In this document: in pieces, positions 5,066 to 29,158 of the stretch | Numbering within the stretch: the stretch's first letter is position 1 | Layout: the number at the start of each line of letters is the position of its first letter | Origin: Candidatus Parcubacteria bacterium | GTDB taxonomy: Bacteria; Patescibacteriota; Minisyncoccia; Minisyncoccales; JAGMAB01 | Direction of reading: 5' to 3' | Length of the DNA: 32,697 nucleotides | NCBI GenBank assembly: GCA_023131055.1 | Contig: JAGMAB010000003.1 | Span: 1-32,697, forward strand | Position numbers and translations under genes: made by a program | Notes under the pieces: generated by a model | The model's database searches: none | What the model saw: the letters and a program-made list of their open reading frames with translations, nothing else | Told to the model about the DNA's origin: nothing

Positions 5066-7177
5066 ATGGCAAAAAAGCATAACAAAAACAAAAAAACTTT
5101 TGAAAAAGAAAAGAAGCGATTTTTGCGGTTTACTCTACCGGAAGAGATTAAAAAATGGATTTGGGGCGTTTGTTTGACGATTTTGGCTATAATTATCGCT
5201 TTGAGTTTTTTTGATTTAGCGGGACCGGCTGGCAAGGCAATGATGTCCGGGTTTCTTTTTTTAATCGGTAAAGCGGTTTTTATTTTGCCTTTGATATTAG
5301 TATTAGCCGGCTTGGTTTTTTTAATAACCAAACGCAAGAAAGTTTTAGGAATTGAGTTTCTGGCAATTTCTATTTTGATTTTCGGCGCTGCCGGACTTCT
5401 TGAGTGTTTAACACCCGACCTTAAACAAGGGGGGTGGCTGGGGTATGTTTTTACCTGGCCATTTCTAAAATTTTTTGGGATTTTGGTAACTCAAATTATT
5501 TCCGGCGGAATAATTCTTATAGGCATTTTAATTTTCTGGCATTTGCTGGGACCGTCAATTAAAGAAGAAAAACCGGATGAAGAAAAGAAACAGGGTCTGA
5601 TTAAAAAAATCTTTGCTCCTAAATTCAAGGTCAAGGAAATTGAGCCAGTTCCAACAGCGCCGGAAAGAGAAAACAAAATTATTGAAAAACCTTTGGAAAT
5701 AAAAGCAAAGCCAATAGGCAAGTATAATCTTCCCGGGTTGGATTTATTGGAGAAAGAAAAAGAAATGCCTTCTGCCGGCGACATACGGGTAAATTCGGCG
5801 ATTATCAAAAAAACATTGGAGAATTTTGATATTCCGGTTGAAATGTCGCAAATAAGCATTGGTCCTACGGTTACCCAGTATTCTTTGAAACCCGCGGAAG
5901 GAATAAAATTAACAAAAATTACTACTTTGTCCAATGATTTGTCTTTGGCTTTGGCAGCGCATCCAATCAGGATAGAGGCGCCTATTCCGGGAAAGCCGTT
6001 GGTGGGGATTGAAGTGCCTAACAGGGCAAGGGCGCGGGTGCGGTTAAGGGATTTAATTGCCAATAATAATTTTTTTCAGGGTTCGTGCCTGAATTTTGCT
6101 TTGGGAAAAGATGTTTCAGGAAATATGATGTATGCGGATTTGGCTCGGATGCCGCATTTGTTAGTTGCCGGCGCTACCGGCACGGGCAAGACAATTTTTT
6201 TGAATACTTTGCTTTTATCGTTTCTTTACAGGAATTCTCCGGAACAATTAAGGTTGATTTTAGTTGACCCTAAAAGAGTGGAATTTCCGGTTTATAAGGA
6301 TTTGCCGCATCTTTTGTGTCCAGTAATTTTTGACGCGCAAAAAACAATTAACGCTTTGAAATGGTTAGTTTCGGAAATGGAAAGAAGATTTGATTTGCTG
6401 GCGGCCGCTAAAACCAGAGACATTGAAAGTTATAATCAAGACAGGGCAAAAGCAGAGGAAGAGCCATTGCCTTATATTGTTTTGGTTATTGACGAGTTGG
6501 CTGATTTAATGGCCGCCCGCGGCAGGGAAATAGAAGGAGCCGTTGTGCGTTTGGCTCAAATGGCGCGCGCGGTAGGAATTCATTTGATTGTGGCGACTCA
6601 AAGGCCTTCTGTTGAAGTCATTACAGGGTTAATTAAAGCAAACATTACCGCGCGTATTACTTTTCAGGTTGCTTCACAAGTTGATTCCAGAACTATTTTA
6701 GATATGGCCGGCGCGGAGAAACTTTTGGGATTAGGGGATTTGCTTTTTATTTCAGCCCAGCTCACAAAACCAAAAAGAATTCAAGGTCCTTTTGTTTCGG
6801 AAAAAGAAGTGAGGAGGGTAGTTCAGTATATAAAAAACCAAAACCCGCAGCTCAAAGATAAAGAAGACGAAGAGGGATTTTTAGAAAATCATTTAGCGGA
6901 AGACCTTGAAAAAAGTCTGGAAACTACGGTTGAAGGAGAAAGCGCGGATTTTTATCAGGGAGAAGATCCTTTATACGAGGAAGCGAAAAGAATAGTAATT
7001 GAATCAAAAAAGGCGTCTGCGTCTCTTTTACAGCGGCGGTTGCGGCTTGGTTACGCGCGCGCGGCGCGCTTAATTGATATGCTGGAAAATAAAGGAATAG
7101 TAGGGCCCGGCGATGGAGCCAAACCGCGCGAGATTTTGATTAAGACAGAAGAAGAGGATGAGTGGCAAAAGGTATAA
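5066..7177 (+). CDS. ftsK: DNA translocase FtsK/SpoIIIE family
   Basis: N-terminal TM segments, Walker A GATGTGKT, VIDELADLMA, ATQRPSVEVITGLIKANITARI, C-terminal gamma-like winged helix (YARAARLIDMLENKGIVGP). Confidence 0.97.
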   Translation: MAKKHNKNKKTFEKEKKRFLRFTLPEEIKKWIWGVCLTILAIIIALSFFDLAGPAGKAMMSGFLFLIGKAVFILPLILVLAGLVFLITKRKKVLGIEFLAISILIFGAAGLLECLTPDLKQGGWLGYVFTWPFLKFFGILVTQIISGGIILIGILIFWHLLGPSIKEEKPDEEKKQGLIKKIFAPKFKVKEIEPVPTAPERENKIIEKPLEIKAKPIGKYNLPGLDLLEKEKEMPSAGDIRVNSAIIKKTLENFDIPVEMSQISIGPTVTQYSLKPAEGIKLTKITTLSNDLSLALAAHPIRIEAPIPGKPLVGIEVPNRARARVRLRDLIANNNFFQGSCLNFALGKDVSGNMMYADLARMPHLLVAGATGTGKTIFLNTLLLSFLYRNSPEQLRLILVDPKRVEFPVYKDLPHLLCPVIFDAQKTINALKWLVSEMERRFDLLAAAKTRDIESYNQDRAKAEEEPLPYIVLVIDELADLMAARGREIEGAVVRLAQMARAVGIHLIVATQRPSVEVITGLIKANITARITFQVASQVDSRTILDMAGAEKLLGLGDLLFISAQLTKPKRIQGPFVSEKEVRRVVQYIKNQNPQLKDKEDEEGFLENHLAEDLEKSLETTVEGESADFYQGEDPLYEEAKRIVIESKKASASLLQRRLRLGYARAARLIDMLENKGIVGPGDGAKPREILIKTEEEDEWQKV

Positions 7178-7184
7178 ATTATTG

Positions 7185-7190
7185 TATAAT
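7185..7190 (+). promoter_or_regulatory. Putative recA -10 box (TATAAT)
   Basis: attgTATAATtaatgcatgc about 10 nt before the inverted-repeat element upstream of recA; no clear -35. Confidence 0.4.
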
Positions 7191-7199
7191 TAATGCATG

Positions 7200-7278
7200 C
7201 CCCGTAGTAGAATTTCAAAAGTCCCTACGGGACAAACGAAAATTTTTTAGAAATTTTATTTGAAATTTCACTACGGGG
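7200..7278. repeat. CCCCGTAGT inverted-repeat element, copy 1 (abuts recA start)
   Basis: Left arm CCCCGTAGTAGAATTTCAAA and right arm TTTGAAATTTCACTACGGGG are near-perfect inverted repeats; the interior holds GTCCCTACGGGAC. Confidence 0.9.
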
Positions 7279-7279
7279 T

Positions 7280-8275
7280 ATGGCAAAAGAAAAAAAAGAA
7301 TTAAAAAAGGACTTGCAGGAAGCGGTGGATGAGATTAAGCAGCGGTTTGGCGAGGGCGCGATTATGACATTGAAAGAAATCAGGCCAGTAGATGTTGATA
7401 TAATTTCTACCGGCTGTATGTCTTTGGATAATATCTTGGGAGTGAACGGAGTTCCGCGAGGCAGGGTAATTGAAATTTTTGGAGGTGAGTCATCTGGAAA
7501 AACTACTTTATCCCTGCATATTTTAGCGGAAGCGCAAAAACAAGGAGGTGTTTGCGCTTTTGTTGACGCGGAACACGCTTTAGACCCTGATTATGCCAAG
7601 AAAATCGGAGTAAATACTGATGATTTAATGATTTCCCAGCCGGATTCAGGCGAACAAGCCCTGCAGATTGTTGAGACATTGGTTAAATCAGGAGAGGTTG
7701 ATGTGATTGTTGTTGATTCAGTTGCGGCTTTGGTTCCTAAAACAGAGATTGACGGAGAAATGGGAGAATTTCAAATAGGGCTTCAGGCGCGTTTAATGTC
7801 GCAGGCGTGCAGAAAACTATCAGGCATTATTTCCAAGACAAAGACACTGGTTGTTTTCTTAAATCAGACGCGGATGAAAATCGGGATTTCTTGGGGAAAT
7901 CCGGAAACAACACCGGGAGGATTGGCGTTAAAATTTTACGCTTCCGTGAGAATAAATTTGAAAAGAATTGCCCAGATAAAATACAAAGATGAAATTATCG
8001 GCAATCGCGTTAGAGCCAAAATTGTTAAAAATAAAGTTGCGGCTCCTTTCAAAACCTGTGAATTTGATATTTATTATAATGAGGGAATATCAAAATTTTC
8101 AGATATTATCAATGTCGGATTAAAAAAAGGAGTAATAAAAAAAGCCGGGAATTCATATAGTTTTGAGAATACCAAGCTTGGAGTTGGTTTTGAAGCAGCC
8201 AAAAAATTCTTGAAAGAAAACCCGGAGATTATGAAAAAGATTAAAAAAGCAATTTTAATCAGTAATGAGGAGTAA
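7280..8275 (+). CDS. recA: Recombinase RecA
   Basis: [13 protein letters not shown] Walker [43 protein letters not shown]. Confidence 0.99.
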
Positions 8276-29083: not shown

Positions 29084-29158
29084 CCCCGTAGTGAAAATTG
29101 GACAAAGATTTCTGAAAGAAATCTTAATTGCGTAGCTAGTCCAATTTCTACTACGGGG
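29084..29158. repeat. CCCCGTAGT inverted-repeat element, copy 2 (upstream of dnaG)
   Basis: Left arm CCCCGTAGTGAAAATTGGAC, right arm GTCCAATTTCTACTACGGGG; interior hairpin AAGATTTC-tgaaa-GAAATCTT. Confidence 0.9.

Follow-up and report, generated by a model that had tools for sequence, protein, structure and literature searches.

The window, by which we mean the whole 32,697-nt stretch analysed, belongs to a Patescibacteria-type genome of 0.5 Mb and carries, in order, the end of rpoB, rpoC, ftsK and recA. The identity of recA is certain (Pfam RecA, E 3e-125). Between the ftsK stop at 7177 and the recA ATG at 7280 lie TATAAT, TAATGC, an ATG at 7197–7199, a 79-bp inverted repeat and T-ATG (Table 1). 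As an earlier note on this DNA had described, the repeat (CCCCGTAGTAGAATTTC...GAAATTTCACTACGGGG) fills the gap between the TATAAT at 7185–7190 and the recA ATG at 7280: it occupies 7200–7278, beginning 10 nt past the box and stopping one base short of the start codon. The long hairpin expected there is borne out by RNA folding of 7195–7300, which gives −40.3 kcal/mol; shuffled sequences give −15.9 ± 3.0 (z −8.1), and none of 200 reaches the same stability. The predicted fold of the element consists of one outer stem and two inner hairpins. The flanks, CATG at 7196–7199 and TATG at 7279–7282, are a duplicated target with one mismatch and lengthen the stem into the start codon. A second copy of similar architecture lies at 29084–29158, where its left end adjoins the −35 box (TTGACA) of a minus-strand starch-synthase-like gene; its pattern has zero matches in shuffles.

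Table 1 Features of the recA leader and the second element copy in the window
Feature	Position	Strand	Basis or remark
Predicted −10 box, TATAAT	7185..7190	+	6 nt 5′ of first ATG
Left target copy, CATG (ancestral start-codon site)	7196..7199	+	one mismatch vs right copy
17-codon reading frame from old start codon (putative uORF)	7197..7250	+	ends 29 nt before recA ATG
79-bp MITE-like mobile element, non-autonomous; TAGA arm first	7200..7278	+	71/79 bases = rtcB copy
Outer stem, 5′ arm	7200..7219	+	fold; covariation
Conserved A-C mismatch and G-T wobble (partners 7269 and 7268)	7209..7210	+	TGAA/TAGA arms in 115/131
Inner hairpin 1, GTCCC-TAC-GGGAC	7221..7233	+	fold
Inner hairpin 2 (8 bp, 3-nt loop)	7239..7257	+	fold
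Outer stem, 3′ arm	7259..7278	+	fold
Right target copy TATG, provides present recA start codon	7279..7282	+	sequence of flank
recA	7280..8275	+	Pfam RecA
Second copy, 75 bp, perfect TCAA duplication	29084..29158	+	pattern search of window

The earlier note had allowed that the repeat might simply have inserted at this position, and comparison with relatives settles the matter in that direction. The element belongs to a dispersed family with 4-bp duplications, and the site is empty in relatives, including one of the same genus: all 29 other recA genes inspected, a check that the note had proposed, lack it. The congener (L071, 90% identical RecA protein) reads TATAATTAACTT-ATG, with the same −10-to-ATG spacing as in the window. 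A −10-like box lies 3–9 nt 5′ of the ATG in 19 of the 29 genes, which makes a leaderless recA probable in this order; most of the 29, the congener's among them, look leaderless. Since the TATAAT of the window sits 6 nt before the first ATG, the ancestral recA mRNA here was probably leaderless as well. A near copy of the element, identical at 71 of 79 bases, occupies the start codon of a gene recognised as rtcB by its protein sequence, in a genome of another genus (G015), and is flanked by a perfect TATG duplication. The recA hairpin is thus an inserted element and no dedicated recA regulator, and the best reading is that recA, probably leaderless before, acquired its structured leader through the insertion.

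A kinship search returned relatives with genomes of 0.3–1.5 Mb, and a strict-pattern search found copies in 18 of 147 of them. The family set used below comprises 131 deduplicated elements with flanks, taken from fetched sites. All 131 reside in Patescibacteria-type genomes, with Parcubacteria, Nealsonbacteria, Uhrbacteria, Portnoybacteria, Kaiserbacteria and Taylorbacteria among the named carriers; a search of viral contigs gave no match. A perfect 4-bp target duplication flanks 81 of the elements, and every one of these 81 targets conforms to YNNR (25% by chance). Like other MITEs, the copies are short and dispersed, end in inverted repeats, duplicate a target of fixed length (4 bp, with one mismatch in the recA copy) and have bigger coding relatives with the same ends, the GIY-YIG elements described below. 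The two arms evolve together. Pairing holds in 94% of the cells when 34 distinct arm pairs are compared; double changes number 82, whereas shuffling yields 19.7 and slid controls never exceed 16. In 115 of the 131 elements one arm carries TGAA and the other TAGA, so that an A-C mismatch next to a G-T wobble is constant; two TAGA arms occur in five elements and two TGAA arms in none. Ordinary transposon ends must match a protein, not one another, and the covarying arms and fixed mismatch therefore suggest that a folded strand is what is recognised. Two arrangements within the family may be recorded separately. In one genome (L050, L051 and L052; G068 C6) elements of 61–68 bp stand in tandem with 66-bp spacing and a common TTGA, a nested-insertion pattern; in Portnoybacteria a 125-bp element (L187/L201, 764–888) lies in the anticodon loop of an apparent tRNA-Gly with a CAAG duplication and itself holds an apparently complete tRNA-Gly.

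Insertion sites differ with element length. Of 58 elements longer than 95 bp, 24 sit on start codons, whereas 2.7% of noncoding YNNR background sites do. Their hosts include rpsL (two families), rpsU, lysS, glyS, leuS, hisS, folD, ftsH, ftsX and recO; here and below, host genes other than recA were named by eye from the protein sequence and not by database assignment. The short class is frequently found at −35 boxes rather than at start codons: duplications of the TTGA/CTTG type fall on −35 boxes in 27 of 38 cases, compared with 18% of such background sites. Two candidate causes of targeting were set aside. Leaderless promoters occur at 13 of 25 start sites and at 30% of genes, a weak excess, and matches of an internal GGGG motif to the target, judged by eye, are too weak and inconsistent for a guide.

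A 154-nt element (L183) that retains a 33-aa GIY-YIG remnant prompted a search for GIY-YIG genes, which was later widened. Full-length relatives measure about 280–350 bp, have the ends of the short elements and encode a single protein, a GIY-YIG nuclease. In total 23 GIY-YIG genes lie between GTA-type ends whose arms are complementary; perfect duplications flank 16 of them, and 19 are on start codons, including those of dnaE, hrcA, groES and proS. Random intervals from the same loci show an inverted repeat together with a duplication in 3 of 157 cases. At start codons the nuclease gene is oriented in the sense of the host gene, and its stop mostly lies 9–30 nt before the element end, near the host ATG. 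Eight copies (L278, L286, L304, L319, L323, L325, L327 and L330) have a nuclease frame whose first in-frame ATG is the original ATG of the host. The proteins score above the cut-off for Pfam PF01541 and contain the catalytic Y, Y-x-G, R, H and E, with Y6, Y17, G19, R27, H31 and E63 invariant. The nearest solved structures, at weak E-values, are SLX1 structure-specific nucleases and UPF0213, and a match to TIGR01453 is likewise weak. Small GIY-YIG nucleases occur in all 16 genomes checked, and a search of the window's assembly (87% complete) for an autonomous copy found none.

Taken together, we consider it highly probable that the recA hairpin is a MITE-like insertion from a Patescibacteria family whose full-length elements encode a GIY-YIG nuclease and target start codons. 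On insertion a YNNR target of 4 bp is duplicated, and in the most striking cases this is the start codon itself (YATG), so that the host gene regains an ATG directly 3′ of the element. From the association of nuclease and ends we infer that the GIY-YIG protein is the mobiliser: it would make 4-nt staggered cuts at start codons and would move both full-length and shortened copies by way of their folded ends, with the covarying stem and A-C mismatch. The host promoter and original ATG would then drive expression of the nuclease, and the host gene may be translated by coupling or re-initiation. This suggests how compact genomes bear insertions at essential genes such as dnaE, rpsL, lysS and recA, the duplicated ATG preserving a start. 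Counting against this explanation are the failure to find an autonomous copy in the window's assembly, the frequent placement of the short class at −35 boxes and the single base by which the duplication at recA departs from a perfect one.

It is possible, although we think it unlikely, that a conventional DNA transposase moves the MITEs in trans and that the GIY-YIG gene is cargo of some copies. The terminal inverted repeats and fixed-length YNNR duplications do resemble DDE transposition, and the short class favours TTGA/CTTG promoter sites. However, DDE_Tnp_1 (PF01609), which with Y1_Tnp made up the transposase families searched, is absent from 29 of 30 genomes, and the nuclease is present in every full-length copy between these ends, a count obtained with GIY-YIG as the search bait. 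Y1 genes are common in these genomes but are associated with other hairpins. The inspected Y1 loci lack the element ends, except for one contig (G015 C108) that also carries a start-codon element. Mobilisation by a Y1/REP route was rejected on these grounds, together with the duplications of the present family. Y1 transposase genes with GTAG hairpins of their own, REP-like in appearance, were seen at L255 (1205–1970) and L003 (1171–1213).

The consequences for recA can be followed in the predicted leader. Transcription probably still begins at 7197, 6–7 nt past the −10 box, giving an mRNA that would start AUG-CCCC. The two target copies pair with one another and thereby cover the recA AUG. The proposed burial of the initiation region holds in the prediction for the first two bases of the AUG, whose unpaired probabilities are 0.04 (A) and 0.16 (U), and fails for the G (1.0); without the element the three values are 0.98, 0.96 and 1.0. 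A Shine-Dalgarno sequence is indeed missing before recA, as had been pointed out, but this is not unusual, since only 28 of 365 gene starts at related loci (7.7%) have one. Ribosomes would translate the 17-codon frame from the old ATG and then begin recA at 7280 on the partly buried AUG. With the AUG so placed, the model suggests that translation is probably lowered yet not blocked, and the stop of the 17-codon frame 29 nt before the new ATG would make re-initiation possible. Some degree of recA repression is likely on this model, and read-through from ftsK into recA is possible.

That the hairpin is instead a true regulatory leader under selection, acting as a thermometer or as a protein-binding or RNase III site, seems to us very improbable. 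The partly paired AUG and a fold far more stable than shuffles would suit such a leader, but the 29 other recA genes do without the element, and the same element with its duplications stands on unrelated genes. The temperature control raised in the earlier note finds no support, as the predicted fold is the same at 15, 25 and 37 °C, which argues against a thermometer. Evolved control of recA is equally unsupported: an element at recA occurs only in this genome, and a 90% identical copy sits on rtcB. An interruption of recA was seen elsewhere (G004 C2:20137–22395), where about 1.27 kb separates the two parts of the gene inside a single open frame of 767 aa, an arrangement resembling a RecA intein.

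Hardly probable at all is a small intron or bypass element, cut from the mRNA or skipped by the ribosome to restore the original start codon: long start-codon copies persist in essential genes and have in common, read in the sense of the gene, a pseudoknot-like pairing (combined p 4e-8 under a constraint chosen after inspecting some of them), but removal is unnecessary given the downstream ATG, Rfam gives no match, and all five short copies within reading frames have a length plus 4 divisible by 3 and leave the gene frame free of stops, so that they appear to be translated through rather than spliced out or bypassed. Rfam covariance models matched neither the window element nor, at E 1, any of 8 loci. 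The pseudoknot-like pairing lies near both ends (L195–L236) and is enriched in start-codon copies (p 0.27 in the others); a free search for it in long copies is not significant, and significance appears only under position limits picked after inspection, so the pairing is treated as a lead.

In group I introns and free-standing GIY-YIG homing endonucleases such as I-TevI and Seg, a small nuclease is the sole mobility protein. The lone small GIY-YIG nuclease is common to these systems and the present elements; unlike them, the present elements occupy many unrelated sites with target duplication, lack an intron fold and show no visible requirement for a homologous allele. REP elements are not known to generate target duplications. 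REP/REPIN sequences and their TnpAREP (Y1) systems share with our family a GTAG at the hairpin foot, and Y1 genes occur in these genomes; in contrast, the present elements have duplications and the local Y1 genes have other hairpins. Insertions in CPR rRNA genes hold GIY-YIG genes and are unlike both group I and group II introns (PMC11270868); they concern rRNA genes, and the portions of that account consulted mention neither inverted ends nor 4-bp duplications nor start-codon sites. As far as the cited excerpts go, the Correia/NEMIS, RUP and BOX MITEs are likewise short, have terminal inverted repeats and a target duplication, are dispersed near genes and form hairpins in RNA, whereas a 4-bp YNNR target, start-codon and −35 placement, a covarying stem, a conserved mismatch and a GIY-YIG parent set the present family apart (PMC10969869, PMC2229807, PMC3049150). 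A literature search in a library with few subscription journals and preprints returned no account of inverted-repeat GIY-YIG elements at start codons. MITEs as such are already known, and we class the recA element as one that belongs to an undescribed type of element; nuclease-encoding relatives on many start codons point to a kind of mobile element not described before. We are evenly divided on the larger claim of a new class of DNA transposon dependent on a lone GIY-YIG nuclease: such an element would insert at start codons while duplicating 4 bp, commandeer the host promoter and ATG for its own expression, leave the host gene a new ATG and spawn MITEs, the recA hairpin among them. The possible new transposition mechanism becomes directly testable.

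Small GIY-YIG nucleases are mostly unexplained, and the foldback, duplication and start-codon context of many of them makes it likely that they serve as proteins of mobile elements. The sole small GIY-YIG gene of the window genome (L273 1430–1900; G000 C11) is a distant relative inside tRNA repeats. These repeats are 5′ parts of an apparent initiator tRNA, which suggests a further GIY-YIG mobile element with the CAT anticodon as its target. Other small GIY-YIG genes (L277, L279, L283, L290, L299 and L302) lie between different, mostly C-rich inverted repeats, and the kind may therefore extend beyond the CCCCGTAGT family.
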